IMG/VR virus record: IMGVR_UViG_3300032163_000050
Span: 1 to 38,482 of that record
Direction: 5' to 3' (one strand)
Length of the DNA stretch: 38,482 nucleotides
Source of the DNA: a virus
A model generated the notes under the pieces. That model was not told the origin of the DNA and did no database searches. It was given only the letters and a program-made list of their open reading frames with translations. Positions 1-14,202 of the stretch are shown here, one piece after another. Position 1 is the stretch's first letter, and every line of letters begins with the position of its first letter. Both the position numbers and the translations under genes were made by a program.

Positions 1-191
1 TTTAATCTTTCCGCGAGAGCATTAACTAGCGCTTCCGGTTGTTCAGCTTCTACTGTCCACGGGATAGCGATCAAGTCAAAATCGCTTATTATGCTTCCAT
101 GCACACAAAGCGCATATCCTCTACAATGTGCCAATTCCGATAGTGCTGGGTATAGCGCAACGTAAGCAGGTGCGAATGTAGTTGTTCTCAT
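1..191 (-). CDS. Small phage-type protein, 3' end outside window (putative cassette gene)
   Basis: Begins with ATG at 191 on the minus strand, preceded by a GGAGAT ribosome site, and stays open to the window edge (63 codons visible). The visible protein starts MRTTTFAPAYVALYPALSEL and contains HGSIISDFDLIAIPW. It reminds me of small uncharacterised phage proteins with an HGS...D(F/L)DL core. The GS...DFD pattern is loosely like a nucleotidyltransferase active site, but the spacing is shorter than usual, so I assign no function. The gene begins just after the R'' box of the attC at 218-276, so it probably sits in a third gene cassette that starts at 223 and continues beyond the window. Confidence 0.65.
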   Translation of the reverse strand, partial: MRTTTFAPAYVALYPALSELAHCRGYALCVHGSIISDFDLIAIPWTVEAEQPEALVNALAERL

Positions 192-217
192 TCTTTCTAT
201 CTCCGATTAAAGTAGGG

Positions 218-276
218 GTCGAACCCAGCATTCAAGCGGGACGCGCTAAAGCGCGCCCCTTAATTTTACGTTGTGC
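218..276 (-). repeat. attC-like recombination site, left locus, site 2
   Basis: Read on the minus strand, R' is GCACAAC (270-276) and R'' is GTTCGAC (218-224). L' is ATTAAG and L'' is CTTGAAT, which pair if one G bulges out, the classic extrahelical base of integron attC sites. A GGGGCGCGCTTTAGCGCGTCC hairpin-type centre lies between them (21 nt including loop). R' is the exact complement of GTTGTGC at 482-488, the 5' start of the same cassette, as expected for a real cassette. Hairpin and boxes are seen directly; recombination activity is inferred. Confidence 0.85.
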
Positions 277-487
277 GTCATACTAAAAATTAGTGACCCC
301 GTATCTTTCGCAAGTTCTGCGAACCGGGGGGGGGTCGTTCCCTCCTGCGCTCTGTATTGAGGTTCCTTGCGACACACGCCAGTTCGAGTCGCTCATTCAC
401 GTACCGTTAATCCGGTTCCAGGCCTCTCTGTCCACAAGACTTATCCTGCTTGAGTTCAGGCGTTACATTGCAAAGTTAGACGCACAA
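224..487 (-). mobile_element. Integron-like gene cassette L2 (264 bp)
   Basis: Bounded by two G|TT crossover points on the minus strand: it starts with TTGTGC at 487 and ends at the G of GTTCGAC at 224. Its terminal attC (218-276) has R' GCACAAC, perfectly complementary to its own start GTTGTGC, so the circularised form would carry a self-consistent attC. It follows cassette L1 directly. Its only candidate gene is a 37-codon frame (283-396), so it may be a nearly empty cassette, an RNA cassette or a decayed one. A run of nine G on the plus strand lies at 326-334. Confidence 0.8.
283..396 (-). CDS. Tiny hypothetical ORF in cassette L2 (37 aa)
   Basis: An ATG-to-TAG frame on the minus strand, 37 residues, starting MSDSNWRVSQGTSIQ and ending RYGVTNF, placed just before the attC at 218-276 as cassette genes usually are. 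An in-frame TGA directly precedes the ATG, and I see no convincing Shine-Dalgarno sequence. The frame crosses a nine-base homopolymer that encodes Pro-Pro-Pro, so a single base error would change its C terminus. No family is recognised. It is listed because it is the only credible reading frame in this cassette. Confidence 0.3.
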   Translation of the reverse strand: MSDSNWRVSQGTSIQSAGGNDPPPVRRTCERYGVTNF

Positions 488-545
488 CCCTGCATTGGAG
501 CGGGACAGCCCAGAAGCGGGCTGCCCCTCAATTTGAACGTTAGGC
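482..545 (-). repeat. attC-like recombination site, left locus, site 1
   Basis: On the minus strand R' is GCCTAAC (539-545) and R'' is GTTGTGC (482-488). L' ATTGAG pairs with L'' CTCCAAT if one base is extrahelical (C here, where the other sites have G). The centre holds CAGCCC...GGGCTG as a hairpin. R' perfectly complements GTTAGGC at 744-750, the start of the cassette that this site terminates. The stop codon of the 61-residue gene (540-542) lies inside R', as is common for integron cassette genes. Confidence 0.87.
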
Positions 546-749
546 ATTTGGGTATTTTACATAAAAAGCAACTCTTCCTATCTCGTCGCATTCTTCAACA
601 AATGACCATACCTCGTCTGCAAACTTTTCCTTGCCGTAAAGATCATCTCCATATTTCAATGTTTCAAAATCCCATCGCTTATCAATGGCTCTTTTTGCAA
701 TCCGTATCATTTCTTGCTGTTCCATATTCCCTCCAGTTAAAATGCCTAA
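488..749 (-). mobile_element. Integron-like gene cassette L1 (262 bp, one gene)
   Basis: Runs on the minus strand from TTAGGC at 749 to the G of GTTGTGC at 488. It contains one gene (540-725) with its own ribosome site and a terminal attC (482-545). Its R' box GCCTAAC and its 5' start GTTAGGC are perfect complements, the signature of a genuine cassette. It directly follows the 66-residue gene that ends the recombination operon, so it would be transcribed from the phage leftward promoter and needs no promoter of its own. Confidence 0.87.
540..725 (-). CDS. Cassette L1 gene, 61-aa acidic hypothetical protein
   Basis: ATG at 725 is preceded by GGAGGG at good spacing. The 61-residue product begins MEQQEMIRIAKRAIDKRW and ends in GRVAFYVKYPNA. 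It is mostly helical, charged and rather acidic in the middle (FVEECDEIG), with no signal or membrane segment. Family unknown. The gene fills its cassette and its TAA stop is part of the attC R' box. Its size and plain composition suit a small regulator or an anti-defence factor, but nothing in the sequence decides this. Confidence 0.7.
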   Translation of the reverse strand: MEQQEMIRIAKRAIDKRWDFETLKYGDDLYGKEKFADEVWSFVEECDEIGRVAFYVKYPNA

Positions 750-762
750 CTACACGTTAGAG
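744..762 (-). repeat. Collapsed attC remnant or cassette insertion junction
   Basis: On the minus strand the stretch reads CTCTAAC (an R'-like box at 756-762), GTGTA, then GTTAGGC (744-750). Its first 12 bases, TAACGTGTAGTT, match the beginning of the intact attC at 13623, where the L' box and hairpin follow. The likely explanation is an attC that lost its centre by deletion between two short AGTT/GTT repeats. A cassette inserted at a non-attC G|TT site is the alternative. Confidence 0.5.
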
Positions 763-957
763 CGCTTGCTCACTCATCTGTCGAAGCGCCTCGGCCTTTT
801 CCGCTTCTGTTGCAAAAATCATCGGCACTATAGAGCCGAGATACTGTCCATATCCTCCTATGCCGGGGCCGTCTTTAACAATTTCGCGCAGGTAACTTAT
901 GTATGTTTCTTGCTCATTTTTATCGAGCGCTTGTAATACTTTATCAATCGTGCTCAT
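757..957 (-). CDS. Hypothetical 66-aa protein at the end of the recombination operon
   Basis: Starts at ATG 957, preceded by GGAG, only 2 bases after the stop of the exonuclease gene, so translation is probably coupled. The 66-residue protein begins MSTIDKVLQALDKNEQE and is helical, with a Gly-rich turn (GPGIGGYGQYLG) in the middle and an acidic tail. Family not recognised. An upstream in-frame start inside the exonuclease gene is possible but lacks a ribosome site. The stop codon overlaps the attC-remnant R'-like box at 756-762, which suggests that this gene too once preceded a full attC. Confidence 0.65.
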   Translation of the reverse strand: MSTIDKVLQALDKNEQETYISYLREIVKDGPGIGGYGQYLGSIVPMIFATEAEKAEALRQMSEQAL

Positions 958-959
958 TG

Positions 960-2600
960 TCAATCTCCGTTGTAAAATCCGCCCAACCCGGCGGTCAAGA
1001 GGGACTCCGCAAATACCTCGCGCATGCACTGCTCTGCTGCCGAGTAGGTCATGTTGAATTCCTTTGCCACGGCCTCGATCATCTGGATGCGGGTCGGGCG
1101 CGGCATTCCTGGAAGTGGCTCAAGTTGTGGCGTCACAGGTTCAGATTGCGTCACATGCGTGGCTGCTTCATCCTTGCGTTTTTGCTCTGCAATTACAGCT
1201 GCTTCAGCCAGTGCCGTTGCTCGTGCTTGCTGTTCAGCTGCAGCCTGTACTTTAGCAATTGCTTTTGCCTCTTCTTCAGCCTGGATGCGCGCGCGCTCTG
1301 CTTCAAGTCGCGTAGCTTCATCTGCCTTGTGCTTGTCAATGCGAGAGGCGATCAGCAGGGTAAAATCGTCCAGCGGCTTGATGATTATCTGCTGAAGATC
1401 AGGGAACAGGAACGACATGCCAGCGGCGTTATCTTTGCACCATGCCAGCTTTGCACGGATGTCTTTTGCCATGTTATCAGCGGCAAATTTTCCGTCACGC
1501 AGCACGGTATCTATAGCCTCTTGCATAGCGCTGAGTTTCTTTAGTCCCTTAATTGCTCCGGCAAAGTCAGGGCGAGTAATATTCAATTGGATAGGGCGAG
1601 TTTCTGATTCAAGACTTTCAACGTGAGCGCTAAAATCAATTCCTGCCTTGCTGATAATAGCCAGCTTCCTCGATTCTTTTTCAGACTTCACCAGCTTATC
1701 CAGCATCAGCCGCTTTGTAGCAAGCTGCGCTTTGATGTAGTCGATTGTCTTGATTGCCTCGTCAATGGTGGTTGTTTGCGCAAGGATGGCTTTTTTGGTG
1801 CCTTCCAGATCATCCTCGGCGGTCTTGCAAAACTTCACATTGGCTTCTGCATTGGAAAAATCTTCGTCCGTTACCAGCTCGGTTTTGATGTTGGCAATGA
1901 AAGTTTCAGCGGCCTTCTTGAATTCTGGCAGGTTGCTGGCGGTAATCATGCCTGTTGCTTGAATAGATACAGCAGGCAGACCCATGATTGCATCAGCCAC
2001 TGGCTTTTCTGTCACTTCTGGCGGCGTGTAGTTTTCCAAGTCCTTTGAGAACTGCACCCAACCATGCACGATACGGTCACGCATGGCCTGATCAGATTCA
2101 TACCAGATGTGAATTTCTTCAACCAGTTCATCGTTCGCGTCAAATTTTGAGGCCATGAACAGGCACTTAGTCGCGCCTGAAATCATAATCTGCTGTTCCA
2201 TTTGCGCGCAGTATTGCTCTGGTATCTGTCCGGCAGCAAAGGCTGCACGCAACGTGTCATTGAGCGACTTATGCTCAAAACAGATTGATTCATCCATGGT
2301 CAGGCCGTCAAACGATGCACTTAACTTTCCTTCAGATGCGGTGACTGGATACAACTCTTCACCGATGATCTTTTCAGCCAATGGGCGTGCAAGCGCCTCG
2401 AAGCGGTGGCCGTCAGCAAAGCGGCGCTCTGTGGCCGCATCGAATTCCTGGCTAATGCCGGTCGCCATTTCCTGCAATAGCTGGCTGCGTGTTTTGTACT
2501 GTGATACTCCAAGCATGGCCGGCGCATCGCTGGCATTGAAGTGATTGCTTCGGTGGTTGTGCCAAGCTGCTGAGCCCTGCTGTAAATTATGTTTTTGCAT
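960..2600 (-). CDS. YqaJ-type viral recombinase 5'-3' exonuclease
   Basis: A phage alkaline-exonuclease-like protein of 546 residues. It resects double-strand ends to give 3' single strands for RecT. The N-terminal half carries YqaJ signatures: QQGSAAWHNHR and ASDAPAMLG near the start, then SFDGL followed by CFEHKS (metal-binding Asp, Glu and Lys of the restriction-like fold), then QMEQQIMI. The C-terminal half is a long charged helical extension with an Ala/Glu/Arg-rich coiled coil and PQLEPLPGMPRPTR before a final helical segment, longer than a minimal YqaJ protein. ATG 2600 is chosen because GGGGG precedes it and it follows the RecT stop by 10 bases; an upstream in-frame start would overlap recT. 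Confidence 0.9.
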   Translation of the reverse strand: MQKHNLQQGSAAWHNHRSNHFNASDAPAMLGVSQYKTRSQLLQEMATGISQEFDAATERRFADGHRFEALARPLAEKIIGEELYPVTASEGKLSASFDGLTMDESICFEHKSLNDTLRAAFAAGQIPEQYCAQMEQQIMISGATKCLFMASKFDANDELVEEIHIWYESDQAMRDRIVHGWVQFSKDLENYTPPEVTEKPVADAIMGLPAVSIQATGMITASNLPEFKKAAETFIANIKTELVTDEDFSNAEANVKFCKTAEDDLEGTKKAILAQTTTIDEAIKTIDYIKAQLATKRLMLDKLVKSEKESRKLAIISKAGIDFSAHVESLESETRPIQLNITRPDFAGAIKGLKKLSAMQEAIDTVLRDGKFAADNMAKDIRAKLAWCKDNAAGMSFLFPDLQQIIIKPLDDFTLLIASRIDKHKADEATRLEAERARIQAEEEAKAIAKVQAAAEQQARATALAEAAVIAEQKRKDEAATHVTQSEPVTPQLEPLPGMPRPTRIQMIEAVAKEFNMTYSAAEQCMREVFAESLLTAGLGGFYNGD

Positions 2601-2610
2601 GATTACCCCC

Positions 2611-3546
2611 TTATTTTTCTTCGTGGCTATACGAATCAAGTGTCAATTTCTGGCTTTCTGTAAGCTTCGCACCCTTGCTTTCGATCATTGTTATCAGGTC
2701 AGAGACGGTCTGCTTTTTCTCGATGATGACCTTGCGCCAGCCTGCGGCCTTCTTGTCGAAGTCGGCTTGCTCCATCATGGTAATTTCGCCGGTATCTTGA
2801 TCAACCAATTCAGCGTTATTCCCAAACTGGTTGCCAACATCGACCACAATCCCGTTTTCAATGGTCGCGCCACGGCCAGCTTCTGAGGCATGACTAATTG
2901 CAATGGCATTGCTCATTTCGACAGAGCAGGGCATGTATTTCAGAACCTGCAACAAGGGCACCTTGCGACAGTACATTTCCCAGTCGCGGTGGCTGTAGTG
3001 CATCTTGCCGACCTTGTTATATTTGTCGCGGTGCTTCTTTATTTTGCCAACAGTCCACAACTCGATGACTGGCATGGAGGAATCTTTCACCCAGCCGATT
3101 GCATAGGCATGGGTAATGTCTTCCGGTGCATCAAGGTCTGTTTCGTTATGGATAATCAAGTCACGGCGCGCACCATCAGTGAATGTGTACAGCTGGTCTT
3201 TGAATATCACGCCGGTGAATACCGTACCGCGACCGCTGCGCGATACCAGGTCAACCAGTCCCTTCCATCCAGGAACAAAGGTGCATGTCTTGCCGTAGGG
3301 GATTAGATAACCTGCGCCGTTTACGCCCGGCTCAAGTCCAAGCTGTCCAGCGGTCATGATTGATGCCGCTATGGTCATCGGGTCGCACTCTTGCAGCTTC
3401 GGGCTGGTGCTGAATGCGGTCATTGCCAAACGCGCCATGCGGTCAGCGGTGAGGTGCTTCGGTAACGCAAGCGCAAGCTGAGGCTTCACCTTATCCATAA
3501 ATCCGCCGAACGATGCTATTGGGCTTAATGCTGTTCTGTCGTTCAT
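2611..3546 (-). CDS. recT: RecT-family single-strand annealing protein
   Basis: A 311-residue protein that anneals the 3' strands made by the exonuclease encoded just downstream, forming a RecE/RecT-type pair. RecT-family features include the N-terminal PKHLTADRMARLAMTAF, the conserved TIAASIMTAGQLGLEPG core, and YLIPYGKTCTFVPGWKGLVDL in the middle (two adjoining motifs). The C-terminal region carries DWEMYCRKVPLLQVLKY-like helices and an acidic tail. The ATG at 3546 has a strong AAGGAG. The gene lies fifth from the end of the leftward operon, transcribed from the promoter near 5100. Confidence 0.93.
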   Translation of the reverse strand: MNDRTALSPIASFGGFMDKVKPQLALALPKHLTADRMARLAMTAFSTSPKLQECDPMTIAASIMTAGQLGLEPGVNGAGYLIPYGKTCTFVPGWKGLVDLVSRSGRGTVFTGVIFKDQLYTFTDGARRDLIIHNETDLDAPEDITHAYAIGWVKDSSMPVIELWTVGKIKKHRDKYNKVGKMHYSHRDWEMYCRKVPLLQVLKYMPCSVEMSNAIAISHASEAGRGATIENGIVVDVGNQFGNNAELVDQDTGEITMMEQADFDKKAAGWRKVIIEKKQTVSDLITMIESKGAKLTESQKLTLDSYSHEEK

Positions 3547-4826: not shown

Positions 4827-4902
4827 TGGTTGCGAGGGCAGGATTTGAACCTGCAACCTTCTGGTTATGAGCCAGACGAGCTGCCAATTGCTCTACCTCG
4901 CC
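4827..4902 (-). tRNA. tRNA with CAU anticodon (tRNA-Met or Ile2)
   Basis: A full cloverleaf of 76 bases, CCA encoded. Arms on the minus strand: acceptor GGCGAGG/CCTCGCA, D stem GAGC/GCTC with GG in the loop, anticodon stem TCTGG/CCAGA around CTCATAA, and T stem GCAGG/CCTGC around TTCAAAT. Six acceptor pairs are perfect, but position 1 (G) faces position 72 (A), which is unpaired. CAU could decode Met or, if modified to lysidine, AUA Ile. It would be made from the leftward early promoter. Confidence 0.93.
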
Positions 4903-5089: not shown

Positions 5090-5095
5090 GATGCA

Positions 5096-5140
5096 ATTAT
5101 CGCGAAAGCGCTAATTGATGTCAAGCGCTTTCGCGATAAT
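5096..5140 (-). promoter_or_regulatory. Leftward early promoter (PL-like) inside a perfect operator inverted repeat
   Basis: On the minus strand TTGACA (5119-5124) and GATAAT (5096-5101) are 17 bases apart, a near-consensus sigma-70 promoter. It lies in a perfect 17-base inverted repeat, ATTATCGCGAAAGCGCT and its complement (arms 5096-5112 and 5124-5140, spacer 11). The same element in variant form surrounds the rightward promoter at 6429-6470, so the Xre repressor very likely binds both. It drives the tRNA, small early genes, recT, the exonuclease and the left cassettes. Confidence 0.85.
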
Positions 5141-5165
5141 TTTTGTTATAATGCAACCCGAGGGC

Positions 5166-6404: not shown

Positions 6405-6476
6405 ATCGCTATTGTGATTAATAATAATATCGCGATGGCGCTTGACAATTCATAGCGCGTTCGCGATAATTCGCAT
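6405..6476. promoter_or_regulatory. Divergent PR/PRM promoters with repressor operators
   Basis: Plus strand: TTGACA (6442-6447), 17-base spacer, GATAAT (6465-6470). Minus strand: TTGTCA uses the same bases, with a TATTAT-like -10 about 16 bases further on, reading to the repressor. Two operator half-sites flank it, AATATCGCGATGGCGCT on the left and AGCGCGTTCGCGATAAT on the right, close variants of the perfect repeat at 5096-5140. The rightward start point falls at or within one base of the Cro-like ATG, so that mRNA is probably leaderless. Confidence 0.85.
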
Positions 6477-12897: not shown

Positions 12898-13067
12898 AGC
12901 AGAAATCAGTTACACAATCAGTAGAGCGAATTGTAACTTCATCATGGGATGAGGTAAAACATCTCCTGACAGAGAAAAATACCAGATTGATGGCATGGCC
13001 GTACAGAATGGATCGAACGGCAATTTACATTATTGTGAAACATAACGCAGAAATCAGGGGCGGCTGA
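12894..13067 (+). CDS. Hypothetical protein upstream of the resident attC, 57 aa
   Basis: ATG overlaps the previous stop (ATGA). The product begins MKQKSVTQSVERIVTSSWDE and has a beta-like core (RLMAWPYRMDRTAIYIIVKH). Its last ten codons lie inside the attC at 13040-13097, so its C terminus (NAEIRGG) is attC-encoded. This resembles the way cassette genes run into their attC. Function unknown. Confidence 0.65.
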   Translation: MKQKSVTQSVERIVTSSWDEVKHLLTEKNTRLMAWPYRMDRTAIYIIVKHNAEIRGG

Positions 13068-13097
13068 AAGCCGTCCCGCTGGATTGACGGGTTATGC
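13040..13097 (+). repeat. attC-like site, right locus, resident site (left half plus cassette R'')
   Basis: R' ACATAAC (13040-13046), L' AATCAG, hairpin CGGCT/AGCCG, L'' CTGGATT (pairs with L' if one G bulges out), R'' GTTATGC (13091-13097). Its R' is not the complement of the adjacent R'' but is the exact complement of GTTATGT at 13949-13955, beyond two cassettes. The original uninterrupted site was therefore split at G|TT by cassette insertion. Confidence 0.88.
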
Positions 13098-13133
13098 CAC
13101 GTTTTTAGCCTCGAAAATAATTTGATAAAAAGC

Positions 13134-13162
13134 TTGACTATTATTAGATATAAGGCTAGACT
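13134..13162 (+). promoter_or_regulatory. Promoter within cassette R1
   Basis: TTGACT (13134-13139), a 17-base spacer and TAGACT (13157-13162), in an AT-rich stretch unlike its neighbours. It lies about 48 bases before ATG 13210, leaving room for a short leader and the AGGAGA ribosome site. Confidence 0.7.
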
Positions 13163-13209
13163 GTATTCATGGTTAGCGATTGGCGCGAACCGGCTACAGG
13201 AGAAACAAA

Positions 13210-13443
13210 ATGAACATCATTGAAAAAGACTTTGCCAGCATCCTCAACAATGACCCAGATGGTGAGCGTGTATTTTTGAGCATAGCAAGCGAATTAAACG
13301 ACGATGGCGAAGAGCGGTTTTTTATTGTTACCGATAGCGAGGAAGACACTGGGCCACGCGAGAAAACAAAAGAGGCTGCAAAGGCAAATGCCGAGGCCAT
13401 GTGGGGTACGCCAAATAGCCCCTGGGATTTACAGTACTCATGA
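13210..13443 (+). CDS. Cassette R1 first gene, acidic 77-aa protein
   Basis: AGGAGA precedes ATG 13210 by seven bases. The product starts MNIIEKDFASILNNDPDGER, is strongly acidic and has an alternating core (ERFFIVTDSEEDTG). It ends in an overlap (ATGA) with the second cassette gene. An acidic protein followed by a basic DNA-binding-type protein could be a DNA-mimic/regulator pair or a toxin-antitoxin-like couple. Neither is recognised as a known family. Confidence 0.7.
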   Translation: MNIIEKDFASILNNDPDGERVFLSIASELNDDGEERFFIVTDSEEDTGPREKTKEAAKANAEAMWGTPNSPWDLQYS

Positions 13444-13628
13444 GCGGCGGCAAACGTGAGGGGGCCGGACGGCCCCCAATTGACCCACGATTGCTCAAGG
13501 TGCCGGTGGGGTACAAGCTGCCGCGCTGGCTCGTTGATTGGATACGAGAACAGGATAAACCCGCCGCGCTGCTGATCGAAGAGGCGTTAAAAAAACGGCA
13601 CAAACTGAAACCGCCCGAAGGGGCATAA
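13440..13628 (+). CDS. Cassette R1 second gene, KREGAGRP-type basic protein, 62 aa
   Basis: Begins MSGGKREGAGRPPID, a Gly-Arg-Pro DNA-contact-like start common in short phage and plasmid proteins, then LPRWLVDWIREQDKPAALLI with a helix and EEALKKRHKL. This resembles a small ribbon-helix-helix-type protein. The ATG overlaps the previous stop and its TAA (13626-13628) lies inside the attC R' box, typical for cassette genes. Likely DNA-binding; exact function unknown. Confidence 0.75.
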   Translation: MSGGKREGAGRPPIDPRLLKVPVGYKLPRWLVDWIREQDKPAALLIEEALKKRHKLKPPEGA

Positions 13629-13685
13629 CGTGTAGTTGAGGGGCGCGACGCTTTACCAGCGTCCCGTTCGAACGGAAAGTTAGGC
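13623..13685 (+). repeat. attC-like site of cassette R1
   Basis: R' GCATAAC (13623-13629), L' GTTGAG, perfect hairpin GACGCT/AGCGTC, L'' TTCGAAC with one extrahelical G, R'' GTTAGGC (13679-13685). R' complements GTTATGC at 13091 (the cassette's own start), and R'' belongs to the next cassette. It shares the GTTGAGGGGC segment with the site at 13896. Confidence 0.9.
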
Positions 13686-13949
13686 AACGAAAGGATGGGA
13701 AATGAATAACTGTTTAAATTGTAAGTATGAACCTCTATGGCACGATCCTGTTGGAAAAGAACATCCTCGACAATCAGGTGAGTGTCGTTGGGATGGGGTT
13801 ATTCCTGCTATGCCTAAAATATACAGGATCGAAAAAGGAATCATTGTTAAATATTCCGATAATTCAGGAGTTCCATCAAACTGCAAAACATGGGTGCCTA
13901 ACGTGGAGTTGAGGGGCTGCGCTTCTCAGCAGTCCGCTCGAACGTAGGG
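13680..13949 (+). mobile_element. Integron-like gene cassette R2 (270 bp, one gene)
   Basis: Runs from TTAGGC at 13680 to the G at 13949. Its own R' (GCCTAAC, 13896-13902) is the exact complement of its start GTTAGGC. It contains one gene (13702-13947). Past its end the sequence TTATGT completes the resident R'' that belongs with R' at 13040. The cassette arrived either before or after R1; both sit in tandem. Confidence 0.9.
13702..13947 (+). CDS. Cassette R2 gene, four-cysteine protein, 81 aa
   Basis: ATG at 13702 follows AAGGATGGG. Residues 1-65 hold C4, C7, C28 and C61 (NNCLNCKYEP, GECRWDG, SNCKTWVP), probably a small metal-binding domain, with IPAMPKIYRIEKGIIVKY between. From about residue 66 the reading frame is translated attC (NVELRGCASQQSART), a familiar sign of a cassette gene lacking its own stop before the attC. 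Its overall pattern resembles the four-cysteine phage proteins at 11508 and 12198. Function unknown. Confidence 0.78.
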   Translation: MNNCLNCKYEPLWHDPVGKEHPRQSGECRWDGVIPAMPKIYRIEKGIIVKYSDNSGVPSNCKTWVPNVELRGCASQQSART

Positions 13950-13955
13950 TTATGT
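13896..13955 (+). repeat. attC-like site of cassette R2, with resident R''
   Basis: R' GCCTAAC (13896-13902), L' GTTGAG, hairpin CTGC/GCAG, L'' CTCGAAC with extrahelical G, and R'' GTTATGT (13949-13955). R'' is the far half of the resident site that begins at 13040. Both L boxes are clean. Confidence 0.88.
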
Positions 13956-14202
13956 TTCACAATAGAGTAAGCATGTAAGCCCATGCGTACCAAGCCCATA
14001 AGTATCACATCTTTGCGAAAGCATAGACTATGGCGGCAAGAGTTTGGAGTTGGAAGTTGCGACCAGCACTCTGTCTTTCGTGATATTAGATAAAAGAGCT
14101 TGTTTTTTTTGGAACGATTAGGTAGAAGTTTTATCTACTCTGCGGTTTTTCTTCCCGAAAGGGTAATTTGTCGTAGAGCAAGGTTCCCCCTGAACAGAGT
14201 TT
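13956..14202. other. Non-coding interval before the lysis genes
   Basis: About 250 bases after the cassette locus without a credible gene. In lambdoid phages the late promoter and antitermination site lie here. I see several AT-rich patches but no sigma-70 promoter that I would defend. It ends at the terminator hairpin at 14203. A late promoter pR'-like signal is the best guess for its content. Confidence 0.4.

Follow-up and report, generated by a model that had tools for sequence, protein, structure and literature searches.

Two integrase-less cassette arrays with attC sites reversed against their genes in a tailed phage

Integrons are bacterial gene-capture devices in which the choice of attC strand sets the orientation of the cassettes, with the genes facing the integron promoter. 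What, then, are tandem units with integron-type ends doing in a virus of bacteria? The question is raised by IMGVR_UViG_3300032163_000050, a tailed phage whose 38,482-nt stretch was analyzed in full (hereafter, the window). Profile matches identified RecE-like and RecT-like proteins, a primosomal protein, a DnaC-like loader, NinB, a DNA methylase, and TerL, and a chitinase-like endolysin is also encoded; by its TerL, RecE/RecT-like, DnaC-like loader, and NinB genes, this is a genuine phage genome. Its two early operons are divergent, and each carries one array: array A continues the leftward operon after recET, and array B continues the rightward operon after the replication and NinB genes, before the endolysin and terminase genes. 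The sign of the GC skew switches near 6 kb, but it also tracks the reversal of transcription. Neither a tyrosine recombinase (PF00589) nor an integron integrase (TIGR02249) matched anywhere in the window, and a complete integron, that is, intI with an adjoining attI, is not present since the record holds no intI. The genes ahead of array A are as follows.

960–2639, minus strand: RecE-like exonuclease (phrog_7655, E = 3e-173), the last gene of the leftward early operon, which array A continues
757–957, minus strand: 66-aa gene immediately ahead of array A, whose stop codon lies, in the sequence, within an R box

Family searches with the 66-aa gene gave no match, and the nearest RecE relative (L002) has different genes behind recE, with its cassettes elsewhere. 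Also within the leftward early region is a tRNA-Met (CAT) gene (4827–4902, minus strand). A pair of 49-nt inverted repeats (80%) lies at 5095–5143 and 6423–6471, with 1.3 kb between them and arms rich in AATTATCGCGAAAGCGC-like sequence; these are possibly promoter or operator copies.

The attC sites were located with a covariance model (R1) trained on 16 attC sites, all from other viral contigs and none from the window, in which 99% of the pairs formed and three pairs displayed compensated variation. Scanning the window with filters off returned exactly five strong sites (E = 4e-12 to 6e-16), all on the gene strand only; on the opposite strand, these five gave no R1 score at E up to 10. A degenerate attC pattern had 2 matches in the window versus none in 100 shuffles (0.00 expected), and the Rfam search returned no family matching the window attC. 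A strict R''/R' regular expression applied within single sites was dropped after missing five out of five, since each site draws its two boxes from different cassettes. Between the start and end boxes of a segment, complementarity was 7/7 in each of the four closed segments. The assignment to integron cassette arrays without an integrase (CALIN) calls for at least two nearby attC sites that have R boxes and fold into an imperfect hairpin whose one arm carries extra bases, and the window has five, in two clusters. Its arrays are therefore CALINs, in a variant form: the genes do not run towards their own attC but lie on the reverse of the canonical attC polarity, and we kept the assignment because the gene-to-attC order is typical rather than defining. 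At three loci elsewhere (L033:12253–12345, L039:3107–3197, and L047:1952–2053), an ATG apparently falls within the attC hairpin loop, as though the site contained the start of the following gene.

Array A occupies positions 1–762 on the minus strand.

744–762, minus strand: damaged attC that opens array A, with both R boxes kept and the hairpin core gone; CTCTAACGTGTA is directly followed by GTTAGGC
540–756, minus strand: unit A1, the truncated attC plus a 61-aa gene (540–725) with a GGAGG site; 11-nt matched ends
482–545, minus strand (the gene strand; the canonical polarity is plus): attC A1, R1 53.2 bits, E = 8e-12
271–539, minus strand: unit A2, the attC A1 core plus a segment without a convincing gene; 10-nt matched ends
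218–276, minus strand: attC A2, R1 54.4 bits, E = 4e-12
1–270, minus strand: unit A3, the attC A2 core plus an HGSxxxDFDLIAIPW-family gene (3–191), open at the contig end

A first-pass annotation of this region had described two complete cassettes (749–488 and 487–224) with perfectly complementary ends. The complementarity is exact for both GTTAGGC (750–744)/GCCTAAC (545–539) and GTTGTGC (488–482)/GCACAAC (276–270), and it extends to 11 and 10 exact bases in the first and second segments, respectively. Both segments exist as described, but the second has no convincing ORF: its best frame is 43 aa long with a non-ATG start, and no ORF has a ribosome-binding site (RBS). Segment A2 thus looks non-coding; a run of G/C bases lies inside it at 326–333. 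A third cassette had been proposed to begin with GTTCGAC, and this box (224–218) does open a further segment with an open frame. The labels R' and R'' given to the boxes have to be exchanged, since the attC polarity opposes the genes. The CTCTAAC box at 756–762 opens an attC, but that site is damaged and lacks its core (R1 14.6 bits, E = 0.14). Over its first 15 bases the damaged site is identical to an intact attC in L015, which is most simply explained by a deletion between two GTT; part of array A may be frozen because its first site has no core. The A3 frame (63 aa) is cut by the contig end; the contig makes up the entire record, and a search for contigs overlapping it gave none. The frame has homologues in 26 phage records; peptide patterns found no relative in the viral contigs, and none was found among 32 host-type genomes. 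The cassette proteins A1 and B1b had no match in GenBank phages.

The same annotation held that the phage carries a second, independent array, and array B (12.9–14.0 kb, plus strand) bears this out with three attC sites.

13025–13046, plus strand: left half of the inverted repeat enclosing array B (split resident attC), 22 nt
13040–13097, plus strand: attC B0, R1 65.3 bits, E = 5e-15
13046–13628, plus strand: unit B1, the attC B0 core, a promoter-like leader, and genes of 77 and 62 aa
13623–13685, plus strand: attC B1, R1 68.9 bits, E = 6e-16
13629–13901, plus strand: unit B2, the attC B1 core plus an 81-aa gene (13702–13947)
13896–13955, plus strand: attC B2, R1 55.2 bits, E = 2.5e-12
13949–13970, plus strand: right half of the enclosing inverted repeat, 22 nt

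The two halves of the enclosing repeat are 91% complementary over 22 nt, with 16 exact. When the flanks were rejoined at the recombination point, they formed one long attC hairpin (−27 versus −15 kcal/mol as is); therefore, a single docking attC seems to have been present in the phage before two cassettes entered at the cut position. For array B, a resident core at B0 was considered and dropped, as the reversed polarity points to B2, with the stem unchanged. No relative was found for the gene ahead of array B, and hence no homologous site free of cassettes. The gene of unit B2 has relatives in the array loci L028 and L023. The leader of unit B1 (13096–13215) is promoter-like and hairpin-forming (TTGACT...TAGACTGT...GGTTAGCGATTGGCGCGAACC), and leaders of this type recur in G016, G018, G058, G061, and G062, with different genes behind them where read.

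The first-pass annotation had assumed the normal order, gene then attC. In both arrays, the attC sites instead oppose the genes, so that the mobile unit is an upstream attC plus a gene; the rule of complementary outer boxes survives because it is valid in either polarity. In the reading direction of the genes, the short arm of a window site precedes the arm with the extra bases, which is clear in A1, B0, and B2; folding did not resolve which arm holds the extra bases in A2 and B1. A Sulfuriferula integron (L150), followed from intI through its first cassettes, has the long arm ahead of the short one. Seven bacterial loci combine R1 sites with an adjacent integrase that passes the curated cut-off, and in all seven the R1 strand runs against the direction leading away from intI. 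Together, these indicate that the R1 strand is the reverse of the canonical one.

We then scored polarity in cassettes with matched ends, taking the direction from the longest ATG frame. The gene was on the R1 strand in 38 of 42 scorable phage cassettes versus 8 of 85 bacterial cassettes (Fisher p = 6e-20), the other 77 of the 85 scorable bacterial cassettes having the canonical direction. Counted by contig, the R1 strand led the other strand by 12 to 0 in phages (one tie) and by 1 to 19 in bacteria, and in the same table, contigs found by the attC pattern or TerL alone, with no help from cassette genes, gave 29 to 2. In further viral contigs and the window, the longest frames and RBSs were mostly on the R1 strand; the window segments fall below the length criterion of the polarity table, and their direction was taken from RBSs and from the homologues of A3, B1b, and B2. 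MW202573, a complete GenBank phage with independent annotation, has the same reversal. Overall, within this sample of one attC family from metagenomic contigs, phage arrays are back to front: the reversal is near-universal in them, common to over a dozen phages other than the window, and rare in bacterial arrays. For the phages TJE1 and P12002L (Qi et al.), R1 finds no site, and a generic hairpin scan misses their published attC. The few believable reversed bacterial cassettes (L095:5933–6136, L095:4757–4984, and L096:474–668) encode small phage-like proteins, one of which has a relative in a phage array. A dense array in a bacterial bin (L088; Propionivibrio MAG contig JADJLB010000007) has mixed gene directions (4 to 3) and phage-like proteins; it is possibly a phage contig or prophage.

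Exchange between phages was examined through shared DNA, excluding two contig pairs that represent the same virus sampled twice. Stretches of at least 150 nt at 80% identity or more between different phage contigs lay in or adjoining cassette arrays. The block in common between G009 and L028 starts at TAA^C of the upstream site, spans the gene, and stops at CCTAA of the following site; the DNA flanking it on either side is unrelated. G014 and G061 have the upstream attC arms and the gene in common, ending at CTAAC. The boundaries of shared units thus fall at YYYAA^C (G^TTRRRY on the complementary strand); units of an upstream attC plus a gene that break at this position imply that the sites act canonically, with the genes reversed, and are the expected products of an integrase working in that polarity. 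The 62-aa protein of unit B1 is found again in 14 viral contigs, most often within attC arrays, and its gene is 85% identical over 172 nt to a cassette in G018. The phage G060 carries a cassette related (67% identity over 75 aa) to a reversed one in a Nitrosomonadales array (L095), and the phage and bacterial pools therefore touch.

Given sites with matched ends and reversed polarity, shared units with the predicted boundaries, a split resident attC, and no IntI in the window, we consider it likely that this phage recombines its two arrays with the help of a host IntI and draws on a phage cassette pool of its own. We judge it unlikely that homologous or annealing recombination of the RecET type, with attC repeats as linkers and no role for IntI in phages, accounts for the arrays. 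The window phage does encode RecE- and RecT-like proteins, the similar attC arms across cassettes offer possible homology, and one cassette pair (G018/G062) diverges within the leader, as expected of homologous exchange; however, the G009/L028 breakpoints are at YYYAA^C rather than within the conserved attC core, array B splits the long resident hairpin at the recombination position, and a linker role leaves the single strict polarity unexplained. It is less probable still that the reversed attC are retained for a role in the transcript or at the gene start (a leader hairpin, or control of translation or termination), with mobility as a relic. Matched cassette ends have no RNA-level reason, the R boxes and unequal arms are preserved as in integrase sites, and loops and leaders vary between most cassettes; these points stand against a reversed order that puts the attC ahead of the gene with which it travels, a promoter-like, hairpin-forming leader shortly behind the attC in cassettes of several phages, and a start codon seemingly in the loop of some sites.

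The second array had also been taken to suggest a habit, and such sites indeed occur in more than 20 other viral contigs, several of them with two clusters. Six phages (the window, G016, G020, G060, G061, and G064) have a pair of clusters pointing outward from a divergent early region, the second cluster of G020 being a single site; a basic ORF caller supplied the directions, of which a few are unclear (G014). The array of G001 lies between NinG and terminase, a position like that of array B, and that of G004 follows a RecT operon, like array A. Most of the 73 phage cassette proteins had no recognised function. The recognised cargo includes Lar (2), C5, N6/N4, and Dam methylases, Acb2/Tad1, RtcB, MazG, a queuine tRNA-ribosyltransferase relative, and a DHH protein; it is mostly counter-defence and was seen in relatives, not in the window's own cassettes. 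Among the 77 canonical bacterial cassettes, GFA, DUF1330, TIR, GNAT, and HNH were among the commonest families. PHROG matches alone did not separate the two groups, because bacterial cassettes match too. The median cassette length was 267 bp in phages (entered by hand) versus 489 bp in bacteria (p = 1e-8). The hosts of this attC type are mostly Gallionellaceae, Nitrosomonadales, and Methylococcales, and 11 of the 16 bacterial genomes tested with the attC type had an integrase over the curated cut-off. Chance capture of passive host-integron pieces, an origin suggested for some phage CALINs, would explain the attC types in common with these hosts and has a parallel in a Vibrio phage with a piece of its host's integron (Qi et al., PMC9892861), but the polarity opposite to that of host arrays, the shorter cassettes with different genes, and the repeated placement at early-operon ends make this very improbable and already disfavoured.

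Returning to recombination by a host IntI, the phage gene-swapping pool probably relies on the host integrase, whose action in trans we infer. In a host with an integron, IntI would recombine folded phage attC strands with cassettes that belong to other phages or to the host's own array; its presence during infection by the window phage is an assumption. Every attC in an array would keep one polarity, and with a reversed resident attC, only cassettes with reversed genes would be expressed, so that, as we propose, a separate phage cassette pool would be maintained. The folded bottom attC strand is the substrate, and its placement on the lagging-strand template raises recombination in Vibrio (PMC11023631, PMC8946536). 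With attC reversed, this recombinogenic strand coincides with the coding strand; should forks move outward along the early genes, it would serve as the lagging-strand template. Selection would then retain early-expressed counter-defence genes. A broader picture, on which our judgement is evenly divided, is that the phages of integron-bearing bacteria have a cassette economy of their own: a pool of reversed-attC cassettes rich in counter-defence genes, docked at early-operon ends, shuffled between unrelated phages by the host integrase, isolated from host cassettes by expression, with the recombinogenic strand exposed in phage replication or transcription, and occasionally taken up by host integrons.

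Phage-borne attC clusters are already known: 17 integrase-less clusters, including methylase cassettes, were reported in phages, and IntI1 was shown to recombine phage attC (Qi et al. 2023, PMC9892861). The window is like those CALINs in having integrase-less attC arrays in a tailed phage, and methyltransferase cassettes occur in both sets, but the attC types differ, and neither systematic reversal nor paired placement at early-operon ends was reported there. In the open-access literature, we found no earlier report of systematic reversal, paired placement, or a separate cassette pool. The sedentary chromosomal integrons of Gallionellaceae, Nitrosomonadales, and Methylococcales have the same attC family and matched cassette ends but differ in having intI and attI, the canonical gene direction, longer cassettes, and other cargo. 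As in the inverted superintegron of Vibrio cholerae (PMC11023631), where a recombinogenic attC strand on the lagging-strand template raises recombination, strand placement is at issue; there, however, the whole array was inverted by experiment, whereas in the phages the attC are naturally reversed against each gene. Phage morons and anti-defence islands likewise comprise small, variable accessory genes (Lar, methylases, Acb2/Tad1) at operon ends, but genes of the window type are attC-bounded units with matched ends.

If the proposed reading is true, phages exploit the integrase of their hosts, and polarity would filter the flow of cassettes between phages and bacteria; counter-defence genes, among them Lar, methylases, and Acb2/Tad1, would change hands as exchangeable units. 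It would also account for some of the reversed cassettes in chromosomal integrons and offer simple tests of strand exposure.
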